Positions 1-63,003 of a stretch of DNA of 64,000 bases are shown piece by piece (position 1 is the first letter of the stretch; each line of letters opens with the position of its first letter). The notes below the pieces were generated by a model, which was not told where the DNA came from, searched no databases, and saw nothing but the letters and a program-made list of their open reading frames with translations. A program made the translations under genes and the position numbers. Source of the DNA: Gari tellinella (Eukaryota > Mollusca > Bivalvia > Cardiida > Psammobiidae); NCBI GenBank assembly GCA_922989275.2, contig OV277866.1, positions 79,644,328 to 79,708,327 on the forward strand, in the 5' to 3' direction.

Positions 1-181
1 TGCTCTTATCTACTGGACACAGGTCACCAGCAATATAACAAAGATCTAGTAATATGGTGCCCAGTTGCTCTCATCTACTGGGCGCAGGTTACCAGACACT
101 AGAAGGATAATATCAACAATCCACCAGATACCAACGCCCCCTAGTGTCAGCAACTTGCCAACAGCTGTGCCTGTAATAGAA
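1..181. repeat. Short degenerate two-copy direct repeat
   Basis: Two similar stretches containing TCTACTGG and CAGGT(C/T)ACCAG lie about 65 bases apart. No gene or RNA is recognisable. The short open frame over 65-400 runs into the palindromic element next to it and is not credible. Confidence 0.3.
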
Positions 182-2397: not shown

Positions 2398-2571
2398 AAT
2401 TACCCCATAAACACACATTTTAACCCCTTTGATTTATTATTCCATTGAAGAAAACAGCTTCCAATTGATACAGTTGTGAATATGCACCATAAGACATATT
2501 TTAAGTTATCCTAGTAGATGGTATCTTAAAGCAGGCTGAAAGTAAAGTAGCCTGCTCCTTAAATCTGCTTG
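2398..2571. mobile_element. Family A MITE, incomplete
   Basis: Carries the left end (TTACCCCATAAACACAC) and left arm of family A. It breaks off inside the hairpin at the AGATACCA region. Confidence 0.5.
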
Positions 2572-2657
2572 AAGATACCAGCTGACAACAAGCTATGGAG
2601 GAAAAGGTTAGCTGCAGTATTAACGAGGGAAAATTAATCATCTTGAAATGAAGAAAT

Positions 2658-2903
2658 TTAACTCTTTACCACATAGCCTGTTTCTAGTTTTAAAAATAGG
2701 TGACAACTTAAAACAGGTAGAAAGTAAAGCAGAATGTGCCTTAAGGCACATTCTGCTTTTCTTTCTGCCTGCTTTAAGCTACCATCTACTAGAATAAAGA
2801 AAATATTTCTTATCATTCATATTCAAAATTGTTTAAATTGGAACCATTTCTTCAGTTTGGGAATAAAGGCGTAAAGAGGTGTATTTATGGGGTAATGGTT
2901 TAA
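2658..2903. mobile_element. Family A palindromic MITE
   Basis: TTAA at both sides, ends TTAACTCTTTACCACATA and ATGGGGTAATGGTTTAA. Central hairpin AGAATGTGCCTTAAGGCACATTCT. Confidence 0.7.
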
Positions 2904-2961
2904 TTCCCTTACATGATACATGGAAAGCCATCCTTGAGGAATCTTCTCTCGCCATAACAGT

Positions 2962-3603
2962 GTATCCCTGGCAGGGCTTCACACCACACCTTTGTCATCT
3001 GAACGTCTTCATATCTCTCACCTCCCCACTGAAATGTACATGTACATGTATTAGAACACAGTAGTTAAAGGTGTATCCCTGGCAGGGCTTCACACCACAC
3101 CTTTGTCTTCTGGACATCTTCATATCTCTCACCTCCCCACTGAAATGTACATGTATTACAACACAGTAGTTAAAGGTGTATCCCTGGCAGGGCTTCACAC
3201 CACACCTTTGTCATCTGGACATCTTCATATCTCTCACCTCCCCACTGAAATGTACATGTACATGTATATGAACACAGTAGTTAAAGGTGTATCCCTGGCA
3301 GGGCTTCACACCACACCTTCGTCTTCTGAACGTCTTCATATCTCTCACCTCCCCACTGAAATGTACATGTATTAGAACACAGTAGTTAAAGGTGTATCCC
3401 TGGCAGGGCTTCACACCACACCTTTGTCATCTGGACATCTTCATATCTCTCACCTCCCCACTGAAATGTACATGTACATGTATTAGAACACAGTAGTTAA
3501 AGGTGTATCCCTGGCAGGGCTTCACACCACACCTTTGTCTTCTGGACATCTTCATATCTCTCACCTCCCCACTGAAATGTACATGTATTAGAACACAGTA
3601 GTC
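2962..3603. repeat. Six-unit minisatellite, alternating 105/111-bp units
   Basis: The motif GTATCCCTGGCAGGGCTTC recurs at 2962, 3072, 3178, 3289, 3394 and 3505. Unit lengths alternate (110, 106, 111, 105, 111) because an extra ACATGT is present in every second unit. This is a two-unit higher-order repeat of about 216 bp. The open frames on both strands here reflect the periodicity, not genes. Confidence 0.85.
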
Positions 3604-17062: not shown

Positions 17063-17132
17063 GTGTTTTGATTAACATATCTACAAAACAACAACACAAG
17101 CAAAGGGACAGATTTCAATCACATGATTAGAT
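17063..17132 (+). other. 5' UTR part of the first visible PCGF6-like exon
   Basis: TTTAATGTTTCAG at 17050-17062 looks like a 3' splice site, so an upstream non-coding exon is likely. The alternative is that transcription starts nearby. The promoter was not located. Confidence 0.4.
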
Positions 17133-17152
17133 ATGGAACAGGAAGAGGATAA
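17123..17152 (+). other. Overlapping upstream ORF
   Basis: An ATG at 17123 opens a nine-codon frame ending TAA at 17152, out of frame with and overlapping the main ATG at 17133. Overlapping uORFs usually lower translation of the main frame; here that is inference. Confidence 0.4.
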
Positions 17153-17597
17153 TGTGCCAAAACTTGAAGATTCTGTGAAACTAGTTCATGATGAGTCCTC
17201 TAATGAATCAGCGTTGCTTAACCTATACTGTGATAGTAACCCAGCCATGGAGTCCGACGAGGCTTCAATGCCAATTTTGTGTGGAAAAAGCAATGAGAAC
17301 ACCACAAGAAAATCACTAGATTTTGCTAATGTTGAGGAATTACTAGCTGCAAAATCTGGAGACATTGAAACAGAGTATGATAAGCATAAAGCAGCTTGGG
17401 GGATAAATGACAATGAACAGGTATTGCTTAACGCAGAGCAAGTTGAACAGGATACAGAAAGAAAGGATGGAGATAGTAATAATGCTGCTGATGGGGGCAT
17501 CTACAGTGATGTTCAGATAAGAACTATAGAAATACCTGACGATGAGGATTTGTTTGATTTTCAAGCAGTGAACAAGGAGAATAACAAGAGGTTAAAG
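17133..17597 (+). CDS. PCGF6: PCGF6-like coding exon 1 (residues 1-155)
   Basis: Starts MEQEEDNVPKLEDSVK. Acidic and Ser/Asn-rich, no domain seen. Ends AAG|GTAAAT in phase 0. The frame runs on into the intron to 17687, so the donor rather than a stop defines the end. Confidence 0.75.
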
Positions 17598-29500: not shown

Positions 29501-32500
29501 TAGTTCTATTTAAAAGTTTGAGTCCTCATACCTTAAGAAGTTAAGAGACAACATTAACAGGTCCAGTGTTCTGCCTAGAAATCCAAAACTATGGGCCCCA
29601 GGGCCCACTGGACATGACAAAAGGGGGCCATTTTTAGCTCACCTGAGCTAGCTCAGGGTGAGCTATTGCAATCCTTGAATGTCCGTCGTCCGTCGTGCGG
29701 CGTCAACAATTTTAGTGTTTATCCAATCTTTCTCAAACTTGCTCAGATGGTATATTGCCAGAAGAGTTCGGATGAGTTCGATTATGGGTGAAATCGGACA
29801 AATAGGTCATGAGTTATCTACCTTTGAACTGCTGAAAATGCCATATTTAACAGTGTTTACACTCTAGAGGCCACAGTATTTATCCAATCTTTCTAAAACC
29901 TGCCCAGATTGTATATGACCATAAGAGTTCGGAAGAGTTCGATTTTGGTTGAAATCGGACAAATAGGTCATGAGTTATCTACCTTTGAATTGCTGAAAAT
30001 GCCATATTTAACGGTGTTTACACTCTAGAGGCCACAGTATTTATCCAATCTTTCTAAACCTGGCCAGATGGTATATGACCATAAGAGTTCGGATGAGTTC
30101 GATTTTGGTTGAAATAGGACAAATAGATCAAGAGTAATCTACCTTTGAATTGCTGAAAATGCCATTTTTAACAGTGTTTACACTCTAGAGTTCACAATTT
30201 TTATCAAATCTTTCTTAAACTTGCTCAGATTGTATATTACTATAAGAGTTCAGATGAGTTTGATTATGGTGGAAAGCAGACGTATAGGTCGAGAGTTATC
30301 TACCTTTGAATTGCTGAAAATGCCATATTTAACGATGTTTACACTATAGAGGCCACACATTTTATCCAATCTTTCATAAACTTACTCAGATTGTATATTA
30401 TCATAAGACTTCGGATGAGTTCAATTTTGGTTGTAATCTGATCAATAGGTCAAGAGTTATCTACCTTTGAATGGCTGAAAATGATATATTTAACAGTGTT
30501 TACGCTCTAGAGGCCACAATATTTATCCAAGCTCTCTCAAACTTGCCCATATTGTATATGACCATAAGAGTTAGAAAAAGGGTGATTATGGTTGGAATCA
30601 GACAAATATATCAAGAGATATCTACCTTTGAATTGCTGAAAATGCCATATTTTACAGCGTTTACACTCTTGCAACTAGTTTTCAATGGATTTTGATTATA
30701 CATGTACTTGTACACAAAGGATGTAGCTATACATTCTCGAAGGAGTGAAATTATTGTTGAAATGTAATCATTGTGGCAATAGTTACCTGCCCTTGATATA
30801 CTTTGAAATGCTAGAAAAAGGCTTAATTTCAGTATTGTTTAGGCTCTAGTTATCTGCCTTTGATGTACTCTACTATACTACAGTAGGTCTACAAACTTGA
30901 GTGGATTTAGAATAAAACGGGTGAAATTCAAAGGTAAAGCTATCAGGCTTCATTACAAATGGTGAGCGATATCAGGGCCTTCAGGCCCTCTTGTTTAAAA
31001 GTGTGGGCCCCACATTTTTAGCTCACCTGAGCCATAGGCTCAGGATGAGCTATTGTGATCCCATTCCGTCCGGTGTCTGTCGTCCGTAGTACGTCGTACC
31101 TCGACCATCCACATTTTCAAACAACATCTGCTCTGTAACCACTAACCCGATTTCAACCAAACTTTATCAGAAGCATCAGTGACAAGGAGGAACGAAATCT
31201 TGTTCAAAGTTTTTGGCTAGAGTTATTCCCCTTGCTGTGGGACTAGATTTTCTAACATTACCGTATAGACAACTTTTAATGCATAAGAAAATCTTAAAAA
31301 ATCTTGTTCTCAGAAACCCAAAGGCCCAGACCTTTGATATTTGGTATGTATCATAACCTAATGATCTTCTACCAAGATTGTTCAAAGTTTGACCCTGGGG
31401 TAAAAAATGGCCCCGCCCTGGGGCTTATCAGCTTTTTAGCTCACCTGAGCCAAAGGCTCAAGGTGAGCTATTGGGATGGCCCTGTGTCCGTCGTCGTGCG
31501 TCGTGCGTCGTCCGTCGTCGTTAACAATTGCTTCAAATGACATCTCCTCCTATACCGCTGAACAGATTTCAACAAAACTTTACAGAAATGTTCCTTGGGT
31601 CAAGCTCTTTCAGATTTGTTCAAAGAATTAAAAACAATGCAGAACTCTGGTTGCCATGGCAACCAAAGTGAAAAAATAAGGAAATCTTAAAAAATCTTCT
31701 TGTAAAAAACTACAAGGGCCAGAGCTTAGATATTTGGCACATAGCATCACCTACAGGTCCTCTATCAAGTTTGTTCAAATTATGCCCCTGGGGTCAAAAT
31801 TGGCCCCGCCCCGGGGGTCACAGTTTTACATAGAGTTATATAGTGAACATTTCAAATGTCTTCTTCTCTGACACTGATATGACCAGAGCTTTGGTATTTG
31901 GCATGGTGACACTTCTAAATGTCCTTTACCTATTTTGTTCAAATGGTTCTGGTCTGTTGAATATCTAGGTCATAATTCACATTCAATAGATGTATAGCAG
32001 ACAGCAATTCAGCATTATATTAAGAGTTAGACCCTAGCCACATTTCCCAATGGCAGAGTTACATAACTGAACTCAGGTCAGCTGAGGTTCACTATAACAG
32101 CAGCATATGGTGATGTCTGCTACATTTTTTATGCCCCTGCAGTTGGGGCATATTGTTTTTGTCTGTCTGCTTTTTTTTGTCTGTTTGTCAATTTGTTTGT
32201 CTGTCAGTCCACAACTTTAATCTTAGCCATAACTTTGTTAAAGTTAGAAACTTTATAACTTAGGTCATGTTCTGCAAAGGTCAATGTCATTTTTGAGTTA
32301 TTTCCCAGTGTCATATTTTCTTGTCTTTGAGATAACTCCAGTTCTACTGATGTTAACCCATTACCCCATACATATGCCTTTTTACGCATTTAATTTATTC
32401 CTCCTCTACAGAGAATAATTCCACTTTATACAGTCATAAAAATTTAAGATATAAGAAACGGTATCTATATCTTAGTAGATGATAACTTAAAGCAGGTTGA

Positions 32501-45303: not shown

Positions 45304-45451
45304 CTAACACTCTGACGAGTCCTGGGTCTCCACTGTTGGCATCTCACCCGGGACACCCGTGAAGAGTTTCTTGAACTCGGCGAAGATCACGTTGAGATCC
45401 ATCAGAAAAAGACCACCAAACACGACCGTCATGAGAGCTACACCAACATAC
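45304..45451 (-). CDS. Lectin receptor last exon: TM helix and tail
   Basis: Acceptor ATTATTTTACAG, encodes YVGVALMTVVFGGLFLM, then DLNVIFAEFKKLFTG and a tail ending SSEC, stop TAG. No ITAM or ITIM-type tyrosine is present in the tail. A family D MITE ends 27 bases upstream of the acceptor. Confidence 0.85.
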
Positions 45452-48400
45452 CTGTAAAATAATAGTTTCATATAGGTACAGTGGAGAATGTGTTATTCTT
45501 TCCCAATAAACGCGTTTACGCTAAAACTATTATTTGCAGTGCAAACGTACGCAAACGCAAAGCGCTAAAACGTAGAAAAGAACAACTTTTGGACAATTCT
45601 GATATTTCATGTTTATCTTGGTGGCAAACAGTTTGGAGCCTGATCAGACGTCGGGTTACCCGGCGTCTGATCTGGCTCCAAACTGTTTGCACTGCAAATA
45701 ATAGTTTTAGCGTGAACGCGTTTATTGGGAAAGAATAACAGATTCTCCACTGTAATAGGGTAACTTTAGTTTATCCTAATTATTATTTCCCTTTCGGTGG
45801 AAGCGAAAATCCTTTCATTACTGTTGGTAACTTTGATAGTTTGGAGTGACTTTAGAATCTGTCCGCACAAGATTTTACCCTTTTTTTGCCTGGTGGTAGC
45901 CACTAGCGGCCGTATTCCTATTAATGGCTAGGGTAATGTCACAAGAAATGATGAGGTTAATGTCACAAGAAATGGCCAGGACAATGTCACAAGTAATCGC
46001 CAGGTTAATGTCACAAGAAATGACCAGGTTAATGTCACAAATAATCGCCAGGTTAAGGTACTTCGCAGGTGCGCTTAGTTTCCATACAAGGTGTTATGAA
46101 ACTTTTCATGAAGAATGATATAAGCCTAAGAAACAATGTGTGAAAATATAGGCAACATTTATCGTGTGGTTTGTCTTTAAGGTCTCTTTTTCTGACAAAA
46201 ACCTGGAATTTTGATGATTTAATTTTTCTCAAAATTAAATAAAGCTAATTACCATAAGTCTCGCCTAATATGTAGTCCACAACATTCATTACAAGAAAAG
46301 CTAAAAACGTTTTGAATAAAGGTGTTCAGAAAGATGTTGTCAGCTATTTAAATTTTGCAAAATGCTAAAAAATTGAATTACAAAAAACTGACTCATTCAA
46401 TGTATATTTGTTTTCATTTTATTCAAATATATGGTTGATGAAATAGTTAGTCTGAAAAAATTAGAAAATATTACAGTCAGGATTTGTTGTAATAACAGAT
46501 TTTCTTATTAAAATGTGGGATATTTGAAGTTGAGATACAGTTACCTACCTTATAATTAAAATTCTGTCATTAAAATGCATTATTATGTATTCATGGACTT
46601 GCATACAAGGTTAATTATATTGTTTAAACATATTAATAATGGGTAATATCGATATTGAAAAGGTTGACGTATTGATAAGCTTCAATGTGTGTCTTTATAG
46701 TTCAATCAAATCGTATACATGTATACCGATTTTATTGACTTGTAAGTCATTACATGTAAACTAAAACGTACATGTAAGTGGACATATAATTGGACCCTAT
46801 ATAACATCACTAATTCTAATCAACGAAGACTAAACATAACATGTCCCTTGATCACTGCGTTATGGATTGACAAGTCAATACATGTATATCGGACACTTAA
46901 AACAAATATTTGGATCGGATGGGTCTCGAACCTATGACCTTTGAATCGCTAGTCAATCACTCTACTGACTGCGCTATGAAGGATTATACAAAATCGTATC
47001 AACATTTCCTTTATATAAATTTTCTAGTATAAGCACGTACGAAAAAAGTCTATGTCGTCAAGACGCATATCCGCTCGCCCGCAAGACCGACTTCCGTTAT
47101 GCGAAAGGCCTTAATGTCACGAGAAATGGCAAGGTTAAAGAAATCGCTCGTTTTATCAGATAAAATTTGTGTAAAATGCATGTTGATTTGTTAGGGATAT
47201 AATATTTGATATGTATTTGGAAAATATATGATATTGGATGATTTCAAATATACGAAAAAGCTAAAATTATCTGCGGACAGATTCTAAAGTTGTAATGGAT
47301 CACCATTCACCGCCGGGTAGGGTCCATGTAATAGCGCAGTACTACTTTACTTATTTGTCAATTTGTCAGTCTTTTAAAAATACAATTTTTTATGATATCG
47401 ATTCTATTACCCAACTCCTTGAGCGCTTGGACGGTCGTCCTCGGCACTTATAAGTTTCCGCTGAGCGGCGCTGGTGTTGGAAGTGTCGATGGTGAGCTCC
47501 TTCACGTATTCCTCTGCCTTTGCCTCACTGCTGATTGGTGCTGGAATCGGCGGCTGAGTATTCGTCGGACAGTAACAAATCTCGGTGTCTGAAATAAGAA
47601 TTAGGTAAGTACCCAACTTTTAAAGCATATGATTGTTGAATACAGGCACAGTTAAACAAGAGTGTCATTTAAGAGTGTTTATTCTATTTTGCACACCTGT
47701 TTATAGTTTAAAAAATCTCACCCCACACTCGCTGCTGCCCTTCTGGGACCAAACTCTCACAAAATGGTATATGTTGATGTTTAAACAGTTTAAGAGCGCT
47801 GTGTTATGTCTTGCATAGTTTTGTTAATAGATAAAACACTTTTATGGCTATTAGAGGGCAGTTATATGTGATAATGGGCTTTCCATAACCTTGATGTTAA
47901 AATAAGCCCCATTCCCGCGAGTTTACCCCCCCCCCCCCCCCCCCCCCCCCCCTGTCCTATCCTGTCCAATGTTTTGGATCAGGGTCCAAGGTTAAGTTCA
48001 GTCTGAGATCATTCTCAATCATTTGATTGATCAGATTAGAACCTTCGCTCACTTTGGGTGGTTCCGGGCTAAAACAATGCTATATAAAATCCATATATGG
48101 ATGGTTAATAGAATAAATTATTTCAGTGGTCTTGTTTTGAATATCATTATAGATGATTTATACAAAGTTGATCCTATAACGACAATCCAGTATTTTTCCA
48201 TACCGCATGCCATTTTATCTTGCGGCGTCTCATCATAAATTTGCTTCTGTCTACCTCTGTGAATGATTGGCATAAATGGGGGATTCAATGTAGTTAGAAG
48301 CTATGAAGATTTGCAAAACAAGTACATGTATATTAAAGTCCATAGAATATGGATGACCTTTTTAATCGGAGCGTTAATCAGTATGGACCAGCCCGGAGAC

Positions 48401-51400
48401 CGTTTTAGGTCAACATTGTTCGCAATATTGTCGACAATATACAGTAAAACCTCTCTATTACGACCACTAAAGTTTGCTAATTATTAGGTTGTTTACGATA
48501 GGTGACCGCTTAAAGCAAGGTGACAGGGAAACAGAAAGCTCCTTTAGGAGCTTTCTGTTTCACTGTCACCTTGCTTTAAGCTGCCACCTCTCTATTATAC
48601 AATCAATTAGCCTTCGTTTCAGTGGTCGTAATAGAGAGGTTTTACTGTACTTACGTTGATCTGTTTCTACATTTTCTACAATGTTTTCTACAATGTTTGT
48701 TTTCGCAGGACATGGTTGCAGTGGGAGGACGCTGTTCTTACAATAAACGATTTCTTGCTAAAATAAATATTTCCATTGCGAACAAAATCAAAGGTAACAT
48801 ATCAAATTTAGAAACTTTTTTCTTCAGTAGATTAATTAGGTAAATGCATAAAGAGACATAATGATGACTGATAGGTTAACGTCTTGGTACTGACCGTTTG
48901 TGTCACCCGGGTAGACATGGTAGGAGCAGTTGGTGTTTGGGGTACTGTCTGTGTTGATGAAACCGCTATACACAACGCTGTCCTGGACCCCTGGATAATA
49001 ATAGTAATCATTATAATAATAAAAATACCGGGTAGACATGGTAGGAGCAGTTGGTGTTTGGGGTACTGTCTGTGTTGATGAAACCGCTATACACAACGCT
49101 GTCCTGGACCCCTGGATAATAATAGTAATCATTATAATAATAATAATACCGGGTAGACATGGTAGGAGCAGTTGGTGTTTGGGGTACTGTCTGTGTTGAT
49201 GAAACCGCTATTTTCAATGCTGTCCTGGACCCCTGGATAATAATAGTAATAATGATAATAACTGTAATAATAATAACAATAACAGTTGGTGTTTGGGGTA
49301 CTGTCTGTGTTGATGAAACCGCTATACACAACGCTGTCCTGGACCCCTGGATAATAATAGTAATCATTATAATAATAATAATACCGGGTAGACATGGTAG
49401 GAGCAGTTGGTGTTTGGGGTACTGTCTGTGTTGATGAAACCGCTATACACAACGCTGTCATGGACCCCTGGATAATAATAGTAATCATTATAATAATAAT
49501 AATACCGGGTAGACATGGTAGGAGCAGTTGGTGTTTGGGGTACTGTCTGTGTTGATGAAACCGCTATTTTCAACGCTCACGGTCCTGGACCCCTGGATAA
49601 TAATAGTAATAATGATAATAACTGTAATAATAATAACAATAACAGTTGGTGTTTGGGGTACTGTCTGTGTTGATGAAACCGCTATACACAACGCTGTCCT
49701 GGACCCCTGGATAATAATAGTAATCATTATAATAATAATAATACCGGGTAGACATGGTAGGAGCAGTTGGTGTTTGGGGTACTGTCTGTGTTGATGAAAC
49801 CGCTATTTTCAATGCTGTCCTGGACCCCTGGATAATAATAGTAATAATGATAATAACTGTAATAATAATAACAATAACAGTTGGTGTTTGGGGTACTGTC
49901 TGTGTTGATGAAACCGCTATACACAACGCTGTCCTGGACCCCTGGATAATAATAGTAATCATTATAATAATAATAATACCGGGTAGACATGGTAGGAGCA
50001 GTTGGTGTTTGGGGTACTGTCTGTGTTATGAAACCGCTATACACAACGCTGTCCTGGACCCCTGGATAATAATAGTAATCATTATAATAATAATAATACC
50101 GGGTAGACATGGTAGGAGCAGTTGGTGTTTGGGGTACTGTCTGTGTTGATGAAACCGCTATTTTCAACGCTCACGGTCCTGGACCCCTGGATAATAATAG
50201 TAATAATGATAATAACTGTATTAATAATAACAATAACAGTTGGTGTTTGGGGTACTGTCTGTGTTGATGAAACCGCTATACACAACGCTGTCCTGGACCC
50301 CTGGATAATAATAGTAATCATTATAATAATAATAATACCGGGTAGACATGGTAGGAGCAGTTGGTGTTTGGGGTACTGTCTGTGTTGATGAAACCGCTAT
50401 ACACAACGCTGTCCTGGACCCCTGGATAATAATAGTAATAATGATAATAACTGTAATACTAATAACAATAGCAGTTTTGTTTGGGGTACCGTCTGTGTTG
50501 ATGAAACCGCTAAATTCAACGCTGTCCTGCACCCCTGGATAATAATAGTAATAATGATAATAACTGTAATAATAATAACAATAACAGTTGGTGTTTGGGG
50601 TACTGTCTGTGTTGATGAAACCGCTATATTCAACGCTGTCCTGGACCCCTGGATAATAATAGTAATAATGATAATAACTGTAATAATAATAACAATAACA
50701 GTTGGTGTTTGGGGTACTGTCTGTGTTGATGAAACCGCTATACACAACGCTGTCCTGGACCCCTGGATAATAATAGTAATAATGATAATAACTGTAATAA
50801 TAATAACAATAACAGTTGGTGTTTGGGGTACTGTCTGTGTTGATGAAACCGCTATACACAACGCTGTCCTGGACCCCTGGATAATAATAGTAATCATTAT
50901 AATAATAAAAATACCGGGTAGACATGGTAGGAGCAGTTGGTGTTTGGGGTACTGTCTGTGTTGATGAAACCGCTATACACAACGCTGTCCTGGACACCTG
51001 GATAATAAAAGTAATCATTATAATAATAAAAATACCGGGTAGACATGGTAGGAGCAGTTGGTGTTTGGGGTACTGTCTGTGTTGATGAAACCGCTATACA
51101 CAACGCTGTCCTGGACACCTGGATATAGTGATAATAGTACTAATAATAATAACTGTAATAATAATAACAATAACAGTTTGTGTTTGGGGTACTGTCTGTG
51201 TTGATGAAACCGCTATACACAACGCTGTCCTGGACACCTGGATATAGTGATAAAAGTACTAATAATAATAACTGTAATAATAATAACAATAGCAGTTGGT
51301 GTTTGGGGTACTGTCTGTCGAGATGAAACCGCTATACACAATGCTGTCCTGGACCCCTGGATAATAAAAGTACTAATAATAATAACTGTAATAATAATAA

Positions 51401-54400
51401 CAATAACAGTTGGTGTTTGGGGTACTGTCTGTGTTGATGAAACCGCTATACACAACGCTGTTCTGGACCCCTGGATAATAATAGTAATCATTATAATAAT
51501 AAAAATACCGGGTAGACATGGTAGGAGCAGTTGGTGTTTGGGGTACTGTCTGTGTTGATGAAACCGCTATACACAACGCTGTTCTGGACCCCTGGATAAT
51601 AATAGTAATCATTATAATAATAAAAATACCGGGTAGACATGGTAGGAGCAGTTGGTGTTTGGGGTACTGTCTGTGTTGATGAAACCGCTATACACAACGC
51701 TGTCCTGGACCCCTGGATAATAATAGTACTAATAATAATAACTGTAATAATAATAACAATAACAGTTGGTGTTTGGGGTACTGTCTGTGTTGATGAAACC
51801 GCTATACACAACGCTGTCCTGGACACCTGGATAATAACAGTACTAATAATAATAACAATAACAGTTTGTGTTTGGGGTACTGTCTGTGTTGATGAAACCG
51901 CTATACACAACGCTGTCCTGGACCCCTGGATAATAATAGTAATCATTATAATAATAAAAATACCGGGTAGACATGGTAGGAGCAGTTGGTGTTTGGGGTA
52001 CTGTCTGTGTTGATGAAACCGCTATACACAACGCTGTCCTGGACCCCTGGATAATAATAGTAATCATTATAATAATAAAAATACCGGGTAGACATGGTAG
52101 GAGCAGTTGGTGTTTGGGGTACTGTCTGTGTTGATGAAACCGCTATACACAACGCTGTCCTGGACCCCTGGATAATAATAGTAATCATTATAATAATAAA
52201 AATACCGGGTAGACATGGTAGGAGCAGTTGGTGTTTGGGGTACTGTCTGTGTTGATGAAACTGCTATACACAACGCTGTCCTGGACACCTGGATATAGTG
52301 ATAATAGTACTACTAATAATAACTGTAATAATAATAACAATAGCAGTTGGTGTTTGGGGTACTGTCTGTGTTGATGAAACCGCTATACACAACGCTGTCC
52401 TGGACACCTGGATAATAATAGTACTAATAATAATAACTGTAATAATAATAACAATAACAGTTTGTGTTTGGGGTACTGTCTGTGTTGATGAAACCGCTAT
52501 ACACAACGCTGTCCTGGACACCTGGATAATAATAGTACTAATAATAATAACTGTAATAATAATAACAATAACAGTTTGTGTTTGGGGTACTGTCTGTGTT
52601 GATGAATCCGCTATACACAACGCTGTCCTGGACACCTGGATAATAATAGTACTAATAATAATAACTGTAATAATAATAACAATAACAGTTTGTGTTTGGG
52701 GTACTGTCTGTGTTGATGAAACCGCTATACACAACGCTGTCCTGGACACCTGGATAATAATAGTACTAATAAAAATAACTGTAATAATAATAACAATAAC
52801 AGTTTGTGTTTGGGGTACTGTCTGTGTTGATGAAACCGCTATACACAACGCTGTTCTGGACACCTGGATATAGTGATAATAGTAATAATGATAATAACTG
52901 TAATAATAATAACAATAACAGTTTGTGTTTGGGGTACTGTCTGTGTTGATGAAACCGCTATACACAACGCTGTCCTGGACACATGGATAATAATAGTACC
53001 AATAATAATAACTGTAATAATAATAACAATAACAGTTTGTGTTTGGGGTACTGTCTGTGTTGATGAAACCGCTATACACAATGCTGTCCTGGACACCTGG
53101 ATAATAATAGTACTAATAATAATAACTGTAATAATAATAACAATAACAGTTTGTGTTTGGGGTACTGTCTGTGTTGATGAAACCGCTATACACAACGCTG
53201 TTCTGGACACCTGGATATAGTGATAATAGTAATAATGATAATAACTGTAATAATAATAACAATAACAGTTGGTGTTTGGGGTACTGTCTGTGTTGATGAA
53301 ACCGCTATATTCAACGCTGTCCTGGACCCCTGGATAATAATAGTAATAATGATAATAACTGTAATAATAATAACAATAACAGTTGGTGTTTGGGGTACTG
53401 TCTGTGTTGATGAAACCGCTATACACAACGCTGTCCTGGACCCCTGGATAATAATAGTAATAATGATAATAACTGTTATAATAATAACAATAACAGTTGG
53501 TGTTTGGGGTACTGTCTGTGTTGATGAAACCGCTATACACAACGCTGTCCTGGACCCCTGGATAATAATAGTAATCATTATAATAATAAAAATACCGGGT
53601 AGACATGGTAGGAGCAGTTGGTGTTTGGGGTACTGTCTGTGTTGATGAAACAGCTATACACAACGCTGTCCTGGACACCTGGATAATAATAGTAATCATT
53701 ATAATAATAAAAATACCGGGTAGACATGGTAGGAGCAGTTGGTGTTTGGGGTACTGTCTGTGTTGATGAAACCGCTATACACAACGCTGTCCTGGACACC
53801 TGGATATAGTGATAATAGTACTAATAATAATAACTGTAATAATAATAACAATAGCAGTTGGTGTTTTGGGTACTGTCTGTGTTGATGAAACCGCTATACA
53901 CAACGCTGTCCTGGACCCCTGGATAATAATAGTACTAATAATAATAACTGTAATAATAATAACAATAACAGTTTGTGTTTGGGGTACTGTCTGTGTTGAT
54001 GAAACCGCTATACACAACGCTGTTCTGGACCCCTGGATAATAATAGTAATCATTATAATAATAAAAATACCGGGTAGACATGGTAGGAGCAGTTGGTGTT
54101 TGGGGTACTGTCTGTGTTGATGAAACCGCTATACACAACGCTGTTCTGGACACCTGGATAATAATAGTAATCATTATAATAATAAAAATACCGGGTAGAC
54201 ATGGTAGGAGCAGTTGGTGTTTGGGGTACTGTCTGTGTTGATGAAACCGCTATACACAACGCTGTCCTGGACCCCTGGATAATAATAGTACTAATAATAA
54301 TAACTGTAATAATAATAACAATAACAGTTGGTGTTTGGGGTACTGTCTGTGTTGATGAAACCGCTATACACAACGCTGTCCTGGACCCCTGGATAATAAT

Positions 54401-57400
54401 AGTAATCATTATAATAATAAAAATACCGGGTAGACATGGTAGGAGCAGTTGGTGTTTGGGTTACTGTCTGTGTTGATGAAACCGCTATACACAACGCTGT
54501 CCTGGACCCCTGGATAATAATAGTAATCATTATAATAATAAAAATACCGGGTAGACATGGTAGGAGCAGTTGGTGTTTGGGGTACTGTCTGTGTTGATGA
54601 AACTGCTATACACAACGCTGTCCTGGACACCTGGATATAGTGATAATAATAGTACTAATAATAACTGTAATAATAATAACAATAGCAGTTGGTGTTTGGG
54701 GTACTGTCTGTGTTGATGAAACCGCTATACACAACGCTGTCCTGGACCCCTGGATAATAATAGTACTAATAATAATAACTGTAATAATAATAACAATAAC
54801 AGTTTGTGTTTGGGGTACTGTCTGTGTTGATGAAACCGCTATATTCAACGCTGTCCTGGACACATGGATATAGTGATAATAGTAATAACTGTAATAATAA
54901 TAACAATAACAGTTGGTGTTTGGGGTACTGTCTGTGTTGATGAAACCGCTATACACAACGCTGTCCTGGACCCCATGATAATAATAGTAATAATGATCAT
55001 AATAATAATAATAATATTTACCGCTATACACAACGCTGTCTTGGACACCTGGATATAATGATAATAATAATAATAATAAGGACAATAATGATAATAATAA
55101 TAATAATAATGATGATGATATTAATAATAATAATAATAATCATAGTAATAATTATAATTTTATTATATTAATTATGAAACAATACCTGTGATAATAATAA
55201 TACATGTAAATGTAATAATAATAATAATACATGAAAATGTAATAATAATAATAATAATACATGTAAATGTAATAATAATACATGAAAATGTAATAATCCT
55301 AATAATACATGAAAATGTAATAATAATAATAATACATGTAAATGTAATAATACTAATAAATACATGAAAATGTAATAATAATAATAATAATACATGAAAA
55401 TGTAATAATAATAATACATGTAAATGTAATAATACTAATAAATACATGAAAATGTAATAATAATAATAATACATGAAAATGTAATAATAATAATAATACA
55501 TGAAAATTTAATAATAATAATAATGTACTAATTAATATTAACCGCTCCACTGACAAGTTTTCTTCAATTTTAAACAATTATCATCTTCTGTTATTTAATT
55601 TTCATTTTTTGATTATGTATTTTTTACTTTGGAATATTGAAGAAAATAACCTATATCTTGATTGCCCTATTCCAATGTTTCAAGTACAACCTCTCTTTTT
55701 ACTGGTTGAGAGATCGCCAAATATGGCAGTGTTTACAACTAGTTGCTACGAGTCGGAGCTACCTATATCGCATGCTGGCACTATTCTTAATGATTAAGTG
55801 CCGTACTTAATGGGATGCAAAGGCAGTTTGATTGGTTATATTCTACAGAAAAATCAAATTATGTATATTAAAATTTAATACAGTAAAATCTCTCTTTAAC
55901 GACCACTAAAATGAACACTGGCTATAAAAGACTGATGACAGCCTTAAGCAAGGTGACAGTAAAACAGATAACCCCTTAACCCTTTGAACCCTAGTCCCGC
56001 CTATAGGCGTCTTTTTCAAACAGTGTACATGTGAATAGTACACTTGTCCTGTGCAAACAGTGAAGACCCAGATCAGAGGGCTCCGAAAGGAGCCCTCTGA
56101 TCAGGGTCTTCACTGTTTGTCATAATGCCAAACATTGACAAAAACAACCCTTAAAGGTCAGAAATGGACTAGACTAAAATTGAAACTGGGATTGTCCATT
56201 TGAAGTTTCAGAGAGGAAAGAGTTAAGGAGTTTTCTGTTTTACTGCTACCTTGTTTTAAGAAGTCATATGTAGTTAACGCACAATAACGTTAACACACTT
56301 TAGTGGTCGTAACTGAGAGGTTTTACTGTATAACTTATCTCACCTTCGAAACACCGTCGAGCATAGAACAAGGAGCCGTTGTAATCTACTCTGTTCGCTG
56401 GGACGACATACAAAACGGAAGCGGAAGTACCCGCATTCGCTTGTGCAACCGAGTCAGTTATGGAGTATAGGAGACAACCCATGCTCTGTGTTGGGTCATA
56501 CTGAAAGCCCCAGCAATACTTTGCATTGGAGTAATAGTTACGGCAATGGTAAGCACATTCACTAGCAGACATGTTGACGGCCAAAAGCTGAAATGTGTCT
56601 ATGATTGACGGCTGCTTGTCGGGGAAAGGCTCGAACCAACAGTCGCCTGGAATGGAAATCGGATCGATTATACGACCATCTACATCTGAAGAAGGGCCAA
56701 CCGAATGTTACAAAGATATCTATGAATATGTTTGTTCCGTACTGGTGTTAGTTTGAGACCCTTTGGCGGTGCACTTTTAGAACCTAAAGTAACTACATGT
56801 AGTCAGTGAGACGTTAACCCTTTACCTGATAGCCTATTTCTAGTACTTAAGATAGATGACTACTTAAAGCAGGTTGAAAGTAAAGCAGAATGCGCCTTAG
56901 GGCGCATTCTGCTTTACTTTCAGCCTGCTTTAGGCTATCATGTGCTATAATATAGAAAATATTCCATATAATACATATTCATTACTGATTAAATTGGAAC
57001 TATTTTCTTCAGCGGATGAATAAATCATATCCGCTAAAAGGCGCTTCTATTGGGTAAAGGGTTAAAGCATTATATCTTTGCAATCATATGAGTTTGAGTG
57101 TACAGTGCTCCATCTTTACAACAGCACCCACTGCGAGACAAATATTGTGTGTGTTGTTCGGAGGGAGTTGTTATAGGGAGGGAACATATGGCTTACATTT
57201 GAAAACAGATCGTTCCGCGTCGTCTGATCTGGATTCAAGCTGTTTGCTTCTCGTCATTATGTTTTCTTCTGTCCATATGTTCATTTTGTCACTGAGAAAA
57301 TCAGCAGACGACAATTTTAAGTAAACGATATTGCAGCTACGAAAAGGTTAGCCACAATTGTCTTGTTTGGGGAACAGCGACAGGCGTTGTTGTAAGGAGG

Positions 57401-60400
57401 GAATCGTTGTGGGGAGGGCGCTTGTTGGAAGGGAGCGCTGTACTATAGCCAATTGCAAAGAGCGTATTGTAGCCAAATCAGTCACCGGGTTACCTGCTGA
57501 TCAGAATCAAAACTTTTCGCCAAGGCACATTTAAACTAATAGTCAACGTATTAAAAAAAAACTGCATTTTCAACATTTTGTTGCATTGTCAAGTTGCCAA
57601 AATTTTGTTTTTACAAGACTTAGTATAGTTCTCATATTAACGCATTATTCCCTGATACTTCACATACCAGTATCAACTTCAAATAAAGTCTAGTCCATTT
57701 TAAAAAAAAAAATAGGATTGAATTTTACATTGTTTAGCAAAATGACAAACAGTGCAGATTTTGATCAGGGTCTACACATTTTGCACAGGACAAATGTATT
57801 ATTTACAGGTACATTGTTTGTAAAATGACGATGTTAATAGTGGCTCAGATTGAATGTACAGCGCTCCCTCTCTACAACGGCCCTCCCAACAACGAATCCC
57901 TCCTTACAACGACACTCGCCGTAATTCCCTTAACGGGATAATGAAGCCTAACTATTTTACTGCTGCAATATCGTCTGCTTAAGATTGTCGTCTGCTGTTT
58001 TCTCTCACAGTAACATATAATTGAATATTTGATAGAATACATATATTTACCAGTAACAAACAGCTTGAATCCTGATCAGACGCCGCGTTACGCGGCGTCG
58101 GATCTGGATTCAAGCTGTTTGCAAATGTAAGCCAATTCTTAATTGTCCCTCTCTATAACGACTCCCTCCGAACAACACACATAATCTGTGTCTCCCATTG
58201 GATGTCGTTGTAGAGAGGGAACACTGTATTAAACCAATAAAGTCTAATATTGAGAACTGCCCAGTTAAAGTATTCCTTGAATCGATTATAGTTGTATTTG
58301 TTTTAATATTAGCCGTTACTTCTTGCACAAACAAAATTGTCAAAAGCGTAACTAATTATGTTTAAACTGTGAATTAATAATTCATCGTATTGGACTTTTG
58401 CAAAGCGTAGGTAAATAATGTAAGTTATCTCGAATTAGGAGTTAAAGGCAGGGTTAAAAATTACTTTGTCAGCTCTACAACATAATCAACGAGTTCTTTC
58501 GTTAGAGGCTTTAATTTCAGGTCTGCTCGTTGATACATCATCTGTTTTTATTTCTTGAGTAAAATGAATTAAGGCAGTTGAAGAATTTCTATATGTATGT
58601 CAAATTGTTTGGACACCGTTAGCGGTGTCTATAATAACCCTCAATGTTGGCCATATATATAACTTTGGTTCCTAAATGTAACTAAACGGCGCAATATGTA
58701 AAAATAGTCGAAATTAGGGTGACCTAAAAAAACAACAAAAAACCCCAAAAGAGTCCTATATAAACAACTTTCCTTGCTGGTTACTCTTTAACATGTTTTT
58801 CAGAGGTTAATCCTTTACCCCATAGCCTGTTTCTAGTTTTGAAAACAAGTAACCACTTAACGCAGATTGAAAGTAAAGCAGAATGAGCCACCGCCTGCTA
58901 GGATATAGAAAACGTTTCTCATGGTAAATGTTCATGAATGTATAAATTGGAACTATTTTCTTCAGTTGAAGAATATATTACATGTGCTAAAAGGCGCTTC
59001 TATGGGGGAAAGGGTTAAAGTCTCTCAGACAGATACTTTCGAGTAGTTTTAGAGAAGTCGGGTTTAGTTATTGTACACGCAATTAACGAATGCTTCCTTC
59101 CCGTGTAAACGACACTTACAGCGGAGAATCTGTTATTCTTTCCCGTTTAAACGCAAACGTACGCAAAGCGCTAAAACGTAGAAAAGTATAACTTTTGGAC
59201 AATTCTGATATTTCATGTTTATCTTGGTGGCAAACAGTTTGAAGCCTGATCAGACGCCGGGTTACCCGGCGTCTGATCTGGCTCCAAACTGTTTGTAAAA
59301 GAAAAAAATAGTTTTAGCGTAAACGCGTTTATTGGGAAAGAATAACAGATTCTCCACTGTAACATAAATACTCCTATTTGAAAAATAGTTTTGGAGTGTT
59401 AGCTGGCTCCAAATACTTGCAACCATGGCAACGGAAACACTTGTTTTAGCACAAATGCTTTTAACTTTTTCGATGCCAAATTAATCGTGAGATTTTTTAC
59501 CTCGTCACCGTTTCATCCTCGTCTGCTTCAATAATGTTGTATGCAATATCGTTTTTATATCTAGTTACATTTAAGGCAGTATAACGGATGTTATTTCAAA
59601 ACAAGTAGAAAACAGTTTTAATCCTGAACAGACGCCGCGTTACACGGCGTCTGATCAGGATAAAAAATGTTTGCAAATGCACATTATGACGTCATTGAGA
59701 GTAAAAGGGTGTGAAAAAAACCTCATACTCCCCTCAAACAGTATGAATTTAGATCATAAGGATATCCCTTTCATCAAGCTTGTGTGTGTGTTGTGTTGCG
59801 GGGTGTTATGATTTTAGTGGAGAACATTTTATTCTTTCGCAATAAACGCGTTCATACTATAACAATGATGTCCACTGCAAACAGTTTGGCGCCAGATCAG
59901 ACACCGGGTAAGCTGCAGTCTGATCATTCTCCAACTGTTTGCCACTCAGATTAATATAAATCGTTAAGAATTTCGAAACAAAAGGGAAAAGGCAAATACT
60001 TTTTCATTGTACATACCACATTTACTTAAGACATGTACATGAACAGTGGAGAAAACGTTATTCTTTCCCGTTTAAACGCAAACGCAACGCATTTAAATTG
60101 GTAAAATGACATCTATTTGACAATTTTGACTACTCATTTTATACTGAAAGGCAAACAGTTTGGAACCTGATCAGACGCCGTGTAACCCGGCGTCTGATCT
60201 GGCTCCAAACTGTTTGTAATTGAAATAATAGTTTCAACGTAAGCGCGTTTATTGGGAAAGAATAACGTTTTCTCCACTGTTCATACAGATTCTGGTGTCA
60301 TACACACCTTCATTGCGCTCACAGATGAAGCTGTAAGTATCTGTACAGTGGGTGATCTCGAGGTCCCAGGTGGTGTCAGTAAAGGCCCCACACCGTCCAC

Positions 60401-63003
60401 TAGGGTCAGAACTGACCACAGGAATATCACCAGTCTTCACCTCACAGTCCTGGTACTCTAGCGTAGAGTTACTGAAAGGCTTGTGTATGCCGTTCCAAAT
60501 CTTCCCAAAAGCTGCTCTACAAAGAAAAATAATCTAAACCATTACACCATAAATATGTCTTAATACGTATTTAACATATTCGTCCACTGCAGGGCTGCCA
60601 TAAGTTGATCATGAAAAATAGTATGATTTCCAAATTATATATTTTTAAAGCACAGAAAACCAGATGTCTTTGGTACCACTCAGGTTGCAAACCATTTTAC
60701 TATGTACTGACAGAATCTCTCGTATTCTGTTCAATTATAAAAAGTATCTGTTCTGAGATTTTCCAAGGAAATTGTACATTTTCTGTCTTATCAAGCTATT
60801 AGCATATATTGACGGTTTCAGAAACAGTTTATACCAAGATCGGACAGCACCTGAAAGGGGTGTCTGATCAGGGTCTTGCTTGGTTTCTTAGAATATATGT
60901 CTTACATGGTCCAACACTCTCTTTCTTACTTTGGTAGCGAATGTAAAAGCGCAGATGATAGATGTTTATAGTGGATGAAGTTTTATATGGTTATTTTTCA
61001 AGTTTAGATTTCATGACTGAAGGAACACCAACTTGTTTAGATCTTGACAAGACTCTCAGTCTGGTCCCAACTGTTTTCAAATACATCTACTAGCATAGTC
61101 ATGCTTGCCAGGGAGAGTTCCATTGGCCGCGGCGTCTGATCAGAATCCAAACTGTTTGACACTCGTTTCTTCAATCATACTGCCTTTAATTTAACTTTGA
61201 AACAATATTGCAGGCAACAATATTGAAGCAGACGACAATATGGCGGTGAGAGGTCGAAACTCTCACGATAAACTTGATCATGAATGAGTTATCAAAGTGT
61301 GTCTGTACTTACAGATTGGAGTGTGCAGCAAGTTCCCACGTGTAAGTATCGAGGAATTGTATTTCCTCCAGGTCCGCGCCGACCTTGGGCTTAAACAGCT
61401 GACCATACTGACTCTCACATATGGCCTTGGCCTCGTTCCATGTCTTCTTGTCGCTGAACAGAGTGTAAATAGTTCTCTTGGCCGTACAGTTCACAGTAGC
61501 TGAAATTGACTTACATGTACCTGCCTAAGTTTGTATATATAGTATTCCACTTAATTGTGTTAATTATTAGATGGTTACGAAAGGTGACTGCTTAAAGCAA
61601 AATGACAGTAAAACAGAAAGCTCCACGAGGAGCTTTCCGTTTTACTGTCATCTTGCTTTAAGCTGTCACCTGTATTTTATGCAATCAGTTAGCCTTTGTT
61701 TTAGTGGTCGTAATAGAGAGGTTTTACTGTAGATATATGTATAAGTATATAGATTTACTCAATACTTCAATCTCACTTAATTCGACCTTGCCAGTATTCT
61801 GTAAGTTGAACTTTATACTCGTGTTTCAAAGTCACGTGTGTGATCTTATCGTGCATTATACCATCGTGAAGGCAAATAATTGCTCTTTAAAATGATATAT
61901 CACACATGCATTTTGCAATTACAGTACTGTACATGTATTATATTGAAGTCATTGATCAAATGTAATTACGTTTTATTTTTTAAACGGTCCTCGTTTTAAA
62001 TGGAACTATTTTCTATTCTGGAGGAAAAGGTTTAACCAATTTATGCAAAGTGGTTTCTTTCATGCTTATATATTAGATGAGTCGATTTTTTATGCAAGTG
62101 GCGCCTGGTCTACATTGTCATTTTCGTTTTGTTTTATATTGAAATTGCTGTCAACAAACAGTGTAGACTCTGATCAGACGCCGCATAATGCGGCGTCTGA
62201 TCAGAGTCTACACTATTTGCATATGTCCCTTTACTAGGACGTTAGGTACAAATGGGCTTCAGACGTAAAAGGTGTTTTGTGGGATAGAGGGTGGTATAAT
62301 TCAAGTACTTACATGTGCCGCAACAGCACAAGGCAACACACACGGAGAACCAGCACAGCCTCTGAAATACATGTACATGCTGGGTAATTATTTCGTCGGC
62401 AACAATTGTCGTTGCGGTCTGCTACTGTTCTAAATGCAGATTCCTTAAAATTTAATTTTAGAAACAGGTTCAGAGTGTATGTGACAGATTGGATCCCGAT
62501 GAGACGTCGTGTCACGTGTTTCCCTCCTTACAGCAATATTTGCAAAATAGTCTGGATCCCTATCAAACGCAGCATAACCATCTGATCAGGATTCTATTTG
62601 CTCGACACTCATTTTAATATTAATTAAAAAAATGTAAATGAAAATAACGAAAATTTAAATTTGAGAATTCTTTTTTTGAAAATTTATGATATCATGGCAC
62701 TGAATGGGTAAATAAAATACAACTTTATGTATCTATGCCTACACGTACTAGCCGCACAGTTCTTTTTCATTTAAACAATAAGAAACTTAACCGCAGTGAA
62801 ATAAAAAAAAACAAAAAACAATTTTATTGAAAATCTATCTGAGTAGCAAACAGTTTGGAGTCAGATCAGATGCCGGGTTGTCCGGCGTTTGATCTGACTG
62901 AAAACGTTTTTAAACTAGAAATATTTTTTTTTAGCACAAACACATTTTTTTGCGAAAGAATGACATATCCGTAGTATATGATAAAGTGAGATGATCTTAC
63001 CAT
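45304..63003 (-). CDS. Type I membrane receptor: C-type lectin + PAN/Apple + TM
   Basis: Spliced minus-strand CDS: 63003-63001 (ATG only), 62361-62313, 61499-61313, 60516-60308, 56685-56344, 48990-48895, 47588-47411, 45451-45304. That is 1212 nt and 403 residues; all junctions are GT/AG with matching phases. Order: signal peptide (RLCWFSVCVALCCCG, 2-16); C-type lectin domain (about 21-147) with TWNEAKAICESQ, CGAF, THC and SFICE; PAN/Apple-like domain (about 160-262) with CAYHC, YCWGF and GCLLYS; a stalk with CYC and Pro/Thr-rich sequence; TM helix YVGVALMTVVFGGLFLM (from 356); 26-residue tail. Sequons include NCT, NST, NMS and NGS. The EPN/QPD and WND calcium motifs are absent, so sugar binding by the classical site is doubtful. 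A surface recognition role is inference from the domains. Confidence 0.8.
45479..45752. mobile_element. Family D MITE with one duplicated arm
   Basis: TA both sides. The left end carries CCAATAAACGCGTTTACGC, the same sub-terminal block as the right end, and then passes into GTACGCAAACGCAAAGCGC. Both arms thus carry one end type: a rearranged copy. Confidence 0.75.
45927..46055 (+). repeat. 24-bp minisatellite, about six units
   Basis: Unit AGGTTAATGTCACAAGAAAT plus GGCC-type ends. The 64-codon open frame over it comes from the multiple-of-three period. Confidence 0.85.
46918..46985 (-). ncRNA. tRNA-derived SINE head
   Basis: Minus strand: TAGCGCAGTCAGTAGAG (A-box-like) and GGTTCGAGACC (B box). 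Anticodon and T stems are imperfect, so it is probably not a working tRNA. The SINE tail was not delimited. Confidence 0.45.
47411..47588 (-). CDS. Lectin receptor exon 7: stalk
   Basis: Acceptor TTCTTATTTCAG, donor GTTGG|GTAATA. Encodes TEICYCPTNTQPPIPAPISS, then an acidic stretch with SNTS. No domain. Phases 1 and 2 fit the neighbours. Confidence 0.8.
47630..48440. other. Intron 6 tail-side sequence with poly-C run
   Basis: A run of about 26 C at 47927-47952, then a remnant of the TGATTGATCAGATT foldback (about 47975-48050). Otherwise nothing recognised. Confidence 0.4.
48442..48647. mobile_element. Family E MITE
   Basis: TA both sides; CAGTAAAACCTCTCTATTAC and GTAATAGAGAGGTTTTACTG. Hairpin GAAAGCTCCTTTAGGAGCTTTC with TAAAGCAAGGTGACAG arms. 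Confidence 0.9.
48895..48990 (-). CDS. Lectin receptor exon 6: source of the intronic array
   Basis: Acceptor TATTATTATCCAG, donor AACG|GTCAGT; 96 nt, phase 1 on both sides, so it can be skipped without a frameshift. Encodes VQDSVVYSGFINTDSTPNTN then CSYHVYPGDTN. Its first 83 bases and the acceptor are repeated about 52 times upstream in the same intron. Confidence 0.75.
48991..55052 (-). repeat. Exon-derived satellite array, about 52 units
   Basis: Units of 121, 120 or 114 bp. On the minus strand each has an AT-rich spacer ending TATCCAG, then GGGTCCAGGACAGCGTTGTG, TATAGCGGTTTCATCAACAC and CCAAACACCAACTG: the beginning of lectin exon 6. The 121-bp form keeps exon bases 1-83 (to CATGTCTACCCG) and then switches to GTATTTTTATT. 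The 114/120-bp form stops at about base 62 and continues TTATTGTTATTATTATTACAG. The spacer is a degenerate (TAA)n. The phrase GATGAAACCGCTAT (plus strand) was counted about 53 times including the exon. The array fills intron 5 next to exon 6. Confidence 0.9.
55053..55185 (+). repeat. (TAA)n/(TGA)n microsatellite
   Basis: Nearly pure ATAATA repeats following the last array unit. Confidence 0.9.
55186..55530 (+). repeat. Variable-length tandem repeat ATACATGWAAATG + (TAA)n
   Basis: About 12 units of TACATGAAAATGTAATAATAA or TACATGTAAATG type, with spacer lengths differing by multiples of three. Confidence 0.85.
55531..55878. other. Intron 5, nothing recognised
   Basis: No exon or repeat family seen. 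The 62-codon open frame at 55609-55797 has no recognisable features. Confidence 0.3.
55881..56328. mobile_element. Family E MITE split by family C at its loop TTAA
   Basis: E ends CAGTAAAATCTCTC and GAGAGGTTTTACTG, TA on both sides (55879-55880, 56329-56330). C (55980-56222, 243 bp) lies between TTAA at 55976-55979 and 56223-56226. Removing C restores the E hairpin. E ends 15 bases from the exon 5 donor. Confidence 0.9.
56344..56685 (-). CDS. Lectin receptor exon 5: PAN/Apple-like domain
   Basis: Acceptor CCCTTCTTCAG, donor GAAG|GTGAGA. Encodes GDCWFEPFPD, SASECAYHCRNYYS, YCWGFQYDP, GCLLYS and FYARRCFE. The spaced cysteines and the WGF-Y-x(n)-C-L-Y pattern fit PAN/Apple domains. Confidence 0.88.
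56815..57065. mobile_element. Family A MITE
   Basis: TTAACCCTTTACCTGATAGCC to TTGGGTAAAGGGTTAA, hairpin GCAGAATGCGCCTTAGGGCGCATTCTGC. Confidence 0.75.
57103..57440. mobile_element. Family F MITE
   Basis: TA both sides; CAGTGCTCCATCTTTACAAC and GGAAGGGAGCGCTG. Internal hairpin decayed on one arm (GATCTGGATTCAAGCTGTTTG kept). Confidence 0.75.
57620..57850. mobile_element. Family C MITE, decayed
   Basis: Right arm ACATTTTGCACAGGACAAATG and GGTACATTGTTTGTAAAATG. The hairpin tip is deleted. Confidence 0.5.
57859..58226. mobile_element. Family F MITE
   Basis: TA both sides; CAGCGCTCCCTCTCTACAAC and GTTGTAGAGAGGGAACACTG. Hairpin AACAGCTTGAATCCTGATCA, CAGACGCCGCGTTACGCGGCGTC. Confidence 0.85.
58230..58800. 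other. Intron 4, nothing recognised
   Basis: AT-rich, no exon-like frame. GGACACCGTTAGCGGTGTC near 58611 is a short palindrome. Confidence 0.3.
58808..59022. mobile_element. Family A MITE lacking the hairpin right arm
   Basis: TTAATCCTTTACCCCATAGCC to ATGGGGGAAAGGGTTAA. GCAGAATGAGCC then jumps to CTGCTAGGATATAG. Confidence 0.6.
59119..59359. mobile_element. Family D MITE
   Basis: TA both sides; CAGCGGAGAATCTGTTATTC and GAATAACAGATTCTCCACTG. Hairpin CAGACGCCGGGTTACCCGGCGTCTG. Confidence 0.85.
59600..59676. repeat. Solo hairpin of the CAAACAGT...GATCAGACGCCG type
   Basis: AACAGTTTTAATCCTGAACA, CAGACGCCGCGTTACACGGCGTCTG, then ATCAGGATAAAAAATGTTTG. MITE ends around it are unclear. Confidence 0.5.
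59815..60012. mobile_element. Family D MITE, decayed
   Basis: AGTGGAGAACATTTTATTC, GCAATAAACGCGTTC, hairpin CAAACAGTTTGGCGCCAGATCA.. with an imperfect inverse. Confidence 0.55.
60044..60279. mobile_element. Family D MITE close to an exon donor
   Basis: CAGTGGAGAAAACGTTATTC and GAATAACGTTTTCTCCACTG, hairpin CAGACGCCGTGTAACCCGGCGTCTG. Its end is 28 bases from the exon 4 boundary (60308). Confidence 0.8.
60308..60516 (-). CDS. Lectin receptor exon 4: second half of C-type lectin domain
   Basis: Acceptor TTTCTTTGTAG, donor GAAG|GTGTGT. Encodes IWNGIHKPF (WIGL-like), YQDCEVK, RCGAFTDTTWDLEITHC and YSFICERNE. Confidence 0.9.
60530..61300. other. Intron 3 with decayed MITE pieces
   Basis: A family G left end (CAGGGCTGCCATAAGTTGAT, 60591), a GATCGGACAGCACC/GGTGTCTGATC hairpin near 60838-60870 and decayed D/F hairpin halves near 61060-61160. 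No exon. Confidence 0.4.
61313..61499 (-). CDS. Lectin receptor exon 3: first half of C-type lectin domain
   Basis: Acceptor GTCAATTTCAG, donor AATCT|GTAAGT. Encodes VNCTAKRTIYTLFSDKKTWN, EAKAICESQYGQLF and a mid-domain helix (DLEEIQFLDTY). Confidence 0.9.
61540..61729. mobile_element. Family E MITE, left end decayed
   Basis: Right end GTAATAGAGAGGTTTTACTG plus TA; hairpin GAAAGCTCCACGAGGAGCTTTC. About 40 bases upstream of lectin exon 3. Confidence 0.7.
61735..62312. other. Intron 2 with one solo hairpin
   Basis: No exon. Holds the hairpin at 62155-62219 and a possible family A left remnant near 61990-62040. Confidence 0.35.
62155..62219. repeat. Solo near-perfect hairpin
   Basis: CAAACAGTGTAGACTCTGAT, CAGACGCCGCATAATGCGGCGTCTG, then the inverse to CACTATTTG. 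Almost fully paired over 65 bases, without recognisable MITE ends. Confidence 0.75.
62313..62361 (-). CDS. Lectin receptor exon 2: signal peptide
   Basis: Acceptor CATGTATTTCAG, donor ACAT|GTAAGT. Encodes RLCWFSVCVALCCCGT, a hydrophobic signal-peptide core with small residues at the end. Confidence 0.7.
62840..62925. repeat. Decayed hairpin of the same type
   Basis: CAAACAGTTTGGAGTCAGATCA, GATGCCGGGTTGTCCGGCGTT and TGATCTGACTGAAAACG. Possibly the core of a degraded family D element (GCGAAAGAATGACAT follows). Confidence 0.5.

Follow-up and report, generated by a model that had tools for sequence, protein, structure and literature searches.

The window analysed here, a stretch of 64,000 nucleotides of the Gari tellinella genome (contig OV277866.1, positions 79,644,328 to 79,708,327), carries on its minus strand a C-type lectin/PAN receptor gene in which 52 tandem units (48991..55048), each combining the 3' end of an intron with the 5' part of the coding exon that follows it, lie directly upstream of that 96-nt exon (48895..48990). 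We consider it highly probable that this half-exon satellite is best explained overall by copies of an exon edge that carry a single splice site and have grown by local tandem duplication. Half-exon arrays in both polarities recur in the genome, namely at exons of the TM2D2, myosin V and dynein heavy chain genes, which makes the lectin array more than a one-off. The initial annotation, which had described one exon of the lectin receptor gene as amplified, along with its 3' splice site, in the adjoining intron, was right in its observation and understated its importance, as several such arrays exist in this genome.

Tandem Repeats Finder (TRF) covered the lectin array with overlapping rows (48927/49048-55016) of periods 114, 356 and 475 and scores of 7522, 7921 and 5657, and parsing resolved 52 units plus the exon, head-to-tail and near-identical as in satellite or minisatellite DNA. 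Type A units (21 of 52) comprise exon nt 1-84 followed by TATTTTTATTATTATAATGATTACTATTATTATCCAG or a near variant and are 121 bp long in 18 cases; type B units (30 of 52) leave the exon near nt 64-65, continue into a longer ATT-rich linker and measure 114 bp in 20 cases; and the 5'-most unit is truncated, with exon nt 1-29 only. The exact divergence from the exon after CATGTCTACCCGG, initially ascribed to the units in general, thus holds for type A and not for the others. Of the 52 units, 49 retain the AG of the acceptor, and 17 match the exon exactly over the 23-mer spanning its acceptor (-20..+3). Identity to exon nt 1-64 was found in 17 units and to nt 1-84 in six. In a self-comparison the array repeats itself exactly over 385 bp at offset 595, and over 234-254 bp at offsets 2562-3056, which shows that multi-unit blocks were duplicated. 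Just upstream of the array, on the same strand, an ATT/TTA-rich repeat tract (55055..55524, found by TRF and window self-match) resembles the type B linker (~79-85% over 39-48 bp). As a separate observation, the point at which type A units diverge from the exon coincides with a GT at nt 84 (window 48907-48905), for which the chance is 1/16 and which may be a coincidence.

The array is tied to this one place. A 321-bp array query against the 1.6-Gb genome gave 27 matches (all own-genome DNA match counts being lower bounds), 24 of which fell in the array and its exon, while the other three were 33-41 bp long and all to the ATT-rich linker. With the same bound, no further copy of the 96-nt exon was found outside the array in the window or the genome search, no second locus appeared in genome searches for the lectin or the TM2D2 array, and neither was found elsewhere in the surrounding 264 kb. 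As far as these searches reach, the window's half-exon arrays thus lack the many loci of a dispersed bivalve satellite, which speaks against the widespread ordinary satellite that would have refuted the initial annotation. Among 20 arrays with a period of at least 40 bp in these 264 kb, 11 recur within the stretch (counting matches of at least 50 bp) and nine do not. Coding sequence of the lectin or TM2D2 gene is present in three of these nine, namely the two half-exon arrays of the window and a TM2D2 coding-end repeat; the remaining ones are the ATT-rich tract and five arrays (-20821, 22058, 73724, 109873 and 119987) with no coding sequence evident by eye, of which 22058 has short matches (<=37 bp) to array 32747.

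The receptor gene extends from about 61524, where its 5' limit is unsettled, to 45304. Own-genome protein matches place the two halves of the C-type lectin domain at 61313..61524 and 60308..60516, followed by a PAN-like exon upstream of the array (56344..56646; acceptor TTCCAG^GCGACTG, donor GAAG^GTGAGA), the 96-nt exon itself (protein match at C11:79693220-79693330; hand-read phases 1-1; encoding GVQDSVVYSGFINTDSTPNTNCSYHVYPGDTN; donor ACG^GTCAGT), a juxtamembrane exon next after it (47411..47588; TEICYCPTNTQPP...AQGVG) and a C-terminal exon with a hydrophobic, likely transmembrane segment (45304..45451; YVGVALMTVVFGGLFLMDLNV...SSEC and stop), the last two supported by both alignment and own-genome match, and all on the minus strand. 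The joined model, which at that stage included one false exon, as it also did in the homologue search, scored 30.2 bits for Lectin_C (cut-off 22.6) and 22.6 bits for PAN_1 (cut-off 21.4), and the hydrophobic C-terminal segment is conserved in the homologue alignment; on these grounds the gene is classed as a C-type lectin/PAN receptor with a predicted membrane topology. No Pfam match was obtained for the 96-nt exon peptide alone.

A protein search returned six homologues, with Mercenaria, Ruditapes (n=2), Mactra and Haliotis among them, and the region of the 96-nt exon aligns once in each of the six. The exon's 5' edge aligns without a gap against five of them and with a one-residue gap in the Haliotis sequence (P0006); RRCFEG-VQD at this edge corresponds to RRCFEG-TLD in P0001. 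Once the false exon is dropped, the 96-nt exon joins TEICYC directly, and the distance from the exon cysteine to the next conserved cysteine, counted by hand, is 14 residues here and in P0001 and one more in P0004 and P0006. Judged from the aligned region, its 5' edge and the cysteine spacing, the 96-nt exon is real and predates the array, which upholds its initial assignment as an exon. Two other readings were discarded: 48754-48653, an exon in the first gene model, falls in a gap in all six homologues, and an early PAN acceptor was dropped. A plus-strand reading, VWGTVCVDE, may resemble a scavenger-receptor motif, but the homologues support the minus-strand exon. These comparisons also bear on the idea that an ordinary satellite was exonised late, with the 96-nt exon merely another of its units. 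The exon is indeed the physical terminal unit and the linker upstream of it is array sequence, yet its region is present once in every homologue (five of them molluscan by name), so that the exon is not younger than the array, and no other array locus was found in the genome; we give this idea next to no credence.

When the 52 decoy acceptors are each read on as far as the genuine donor, on the assumption of no further splicing inside the array, every reading runs into a stop codon and none stays open. Variable stalk length between alleles or transcripts, which had been suggested for this gene, is therefore unlikely. It is for the same reason very improbable that the units are spliced or read as additional coding repeats of the stalk: some type B units of 114 nt are open in the exon's frame, but the 121-nt length of 18 of the 21 type A units is not a multiple of three and these units carry an in-frame TAATGA, and none of the six homologues has repeats at this position. 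The units also drift. Among 47 of the 52 units (unit 1 and those with at least 11 mismatches, five in total, being left out), 15 sites vary within exon nt 1-64, distributed as 5/4/6 over codon positions 1/2/3. The decoy AG is not specially kept, as 17 of 73 dinucleotides, the AG included, show as many or more changes (47 of 51 units, with unit 1 left out and four odd-length units dropped), and selection keeping the decoy sites left no sign in this comparison.

The arrangement suggests how such an array could form and persist. Short tandem duplications would arise anywhere, and some would span an exon edge. Here, a duplication over the 3' end of the intron and the 5' part of the exon, beside the ATT-rich tract, would have grown to 52 copies, partly by multi-unit duplications and presumably through slippage or unequal exchange, with the original exon preserved as the last unit on the 3' side. 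Without the 3' end and donor of that exon, the copies are incomplete exons that would escape removal by selection, which allows them to grow, probably tolerated through exon definition; because the real exon alone has both edges, the protein would remain unchanged and the array would drift as intron sequence. Whole-exon copies, on the other hand, would alter the protein and be retained or lost as alternative exons, and duplications past a stop codon would be silent for a separate reason.

Three further arrays follow the same logic. In the same window, five tandem units alternating between 111 and 105 bp (3029..3571, minus strand) repeat the intron 3' end together with nt 1-69 of a 116-nt exon of TM2D2, the CG11103/amaretto homologue, with the exon as terminal unit (2913..3028, placed by homologue fit). 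Its edge fits the homologues exactly, with CTK in the window's upstream frame and WGGERYEDVQ and CTKWGGERYEDVQ in the homologues; the acceptor AG is intact and read-through meets an in-frame TAA in five of five units, and all six genome matches of this array lie at its own locus. In a myosin V gene (C19:30535900-30536900), a 97-bp unit occurs six times, containing the acceptor with nt 1-81 of a 141-nt motor exon whose peptide matches myosin Va in PDB (E 4.9e-22); each of the five copies upstream of the exon has the AG and a stop on read-through. The dynein heavy chain array (C3:49796500-49798600) is of mirror-image polarity, as the last part of a 171-nt exon and its donor are repeated downstream of it, in 15 copies spaced by 115 bp in 10 of the 15 and with a stop in all 15 if read on. 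The motif used to recognise these copies requires AAGGT, so its GT count is not independent evidence; TRF also gives 15.4 copies, and at least 14 partial copies were listed in the family search. In all four arrays, the intact exon closes the array on the side of its unrepeated edge. Three are of acceptor type (lectin, TM2D2, myosin V) and one of donor type (dynein), too few for any claim of bias.

Long, near-identical tandem arrays are a classic site of mis-assembly, and the lectin array could in principle be an artefact of this kind; diagnostic variants, however, order its units in a partly higher-order pattern, and the four arrays share one logic with different units on three contigs, leaving such an artefact very little probability.

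The half-exon arrays differ from tandem duplication of whole exons, as in mutually exclusive exons, where each copy retains its two splice sites and reads open. Both place exon sequence in tandem within its own gene, but the half-exon units keep one splice site and, in the lectin gene, stop short of the exon's 3' end and donor, so that the lectin array is not a cluster of duplicated exons. The contrast is visible within the genome at C1:84197800-84198500, where a myosin P-loop exon is present as two complete copies at a distance of 251 bp, each with acceptor, donor and an open frame, which may form a mutually exclusive set; a third P-loop match lies about 2 kb away (C1:84200160). One stretch of the dynein AAA_6 model is matched twice on one strand, 1.7 kb apart (C5:62553837-62553962 and C5:62555509-62555625), which is possibly another duplicated exon. 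A third situation is found at the end of TM2D2, where its last coding exon (46..170, minus strand, by protein homology) runs into a 65-bp x 3.1 repeat of the coding end (1..95, continuing to -105): roughly two extra copies follow the stop codon and have decayed, with TGG to TAG changes.

A survey of four families yielded two half-exon arrays in 406 exon-level matches, array copies included, distributed over PF00063 (80 matches, E<=1e-3; 65 of 215 candidates scored), PF00225 (128, E<=1e-3; 122 of 219), PF12774 (124, E<=1; 122 of 153) and PF00118 (74, E<=1; 78 of 78), with clusters picked by eye. As short copies often remain below threshold (one of the five myosin-V copies was listed), the count is a lower bound and we claim no rate. 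We lean slightly towards a genome-wide class in this lineage, in which edge duplications of either polarity would be tolerated via exon definition and would grow to tens of copies, so that many genes, among them conserved ones, would bear a mounting load of decoy splice sites able to shift exon inclusion with length.

Several observations weigh against the half-exon explanation or its generality. Two of the four surveyed families showed no half-exon array among clusters picked by eye and candidates scored in part. When U1 pairing is scored crudely, the junction of type A (CCG^GTATTT/A) reaches -4.4 kcal/mol compared with -4.7 for the real donor, three units contain a GT site that equals or surpasses this donor (two at -4.7, unit 1 at -5.5), and the GT inside the exon (CGG^GTGACA, nt 84) scores better still at -7.4, so U1 pairing alone does not explain why the decoys would be ignored. 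Units of the same type are not clearly more divergent the farther apart they lie (Spearman 0.027, permutation p 0.11), and the growth history of the lectin array is only partly resolved. Finally, the PAN part together with the 96-nt exon gave no significant match in PDB (best E 0.067).

As for the gene itself, use of a decoy acceptor would likely produce a truncated or decayed transcript, whereas skipping of the 96-nt exon would keep the frame, as its 32 codons lie in phase 1-1. The closest known situation is the intron-18 variable number tandem repeat (VNTR) of human ABCA7, whose 25-bp unit begins with a splice donor and is out of frame when one copy is retained, and whose length goes along with more exon-19 skipping (PMC5954066). 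By analogy with ABCA7, the effect of the lectin array would most likely be quantitative, that is, slower or less accurate splicing and a length-dependent skipping of the symmetric 96-nt exon. A stronger proposal would be that the array is a regulatory device, in which decoy acceptors compete and decoy use or skipping sets the ratio of membrane-bound to truncated, soluble receptor. The largely retained AG, the 17 acceptors that match the real one across all 23 nt, the stop that falls before the hydrophobic segment after decoy use and, as far as the excerpted source goes, the greater skipping with longer splice-site-bearing VNTRs in ABCA7 (PMC5954066) are consistent with it. Decoy sites and codons drift, however, with no visible constraint, and similar arrays exist in TM2D2, myosin-V and dynein genes with no evident need for such control, so we regard regulation of this kind as improbable, while retaining the half-exon explanation with its quantitative effect.

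ABCA7 is thus the nearest precedent found: there as here, a tandem repeat adjoining an exon carries a splice site in its unit, and the exon of the lectin gene forms the last unit of the array. As described in the excerpt (PMC5954066), however, the ABCA7 unit is 25 bp long, whereas the lectin units combine the acceptor with 64-84 nt of coding sequence from the exon, and the occurrence of both polarities within one genome is a feature of the Gari arrays. The initial suggestion of an undescribed class must accordingly be qualified by this published splice-donor VNTR (PMC5954066); the arrangement also recurs at several exons of this genome. In oyster, dispersed satellite-like repeats are carried by Helentrons, to judge from the available extract (PMC7492417); the likeness lies in arrays scattered through a bivalve genome, as with the 11 recurring arrays here, and the difference in that the half-exon arrays of the window were found at one locus each and consist of the host gene's exon. 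Human minisatellites overlap many genes and exons, and the seen portion of that survey (PMC8096271) counts overlaps and describes no arrays from one exon edge. Among the matches listed from titles and abstract openings of the open-licence literature, we found no description of arrays built from exon edges.

The lectin array offers a natural experiment on how the spliceosome selects a single site when up to 52 near-identical ones lie next to it, and opens the role of exon definition to a direct test. It also suggests how coding sequence may turn into satellite DNA with the protein unchanged, and such arrays may be an unnoticed cause of splicing differences among individuals. For genome annotation they call for caution, as they yield many false exon matches and stop-containing fragments.

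Elsewhere in the window, tandem families of ~145 and ~161 bp at 10161-11289 and 29714-30669, and in the flanks, turn up repeatedly within the 264 kb, in contrast to the half-exon arrays. Plus-strand reading frames are present at 17127-17687 and 24395-24919, one of which has a Cys-rich segment that may resemble Polycomb-group RING proteins.

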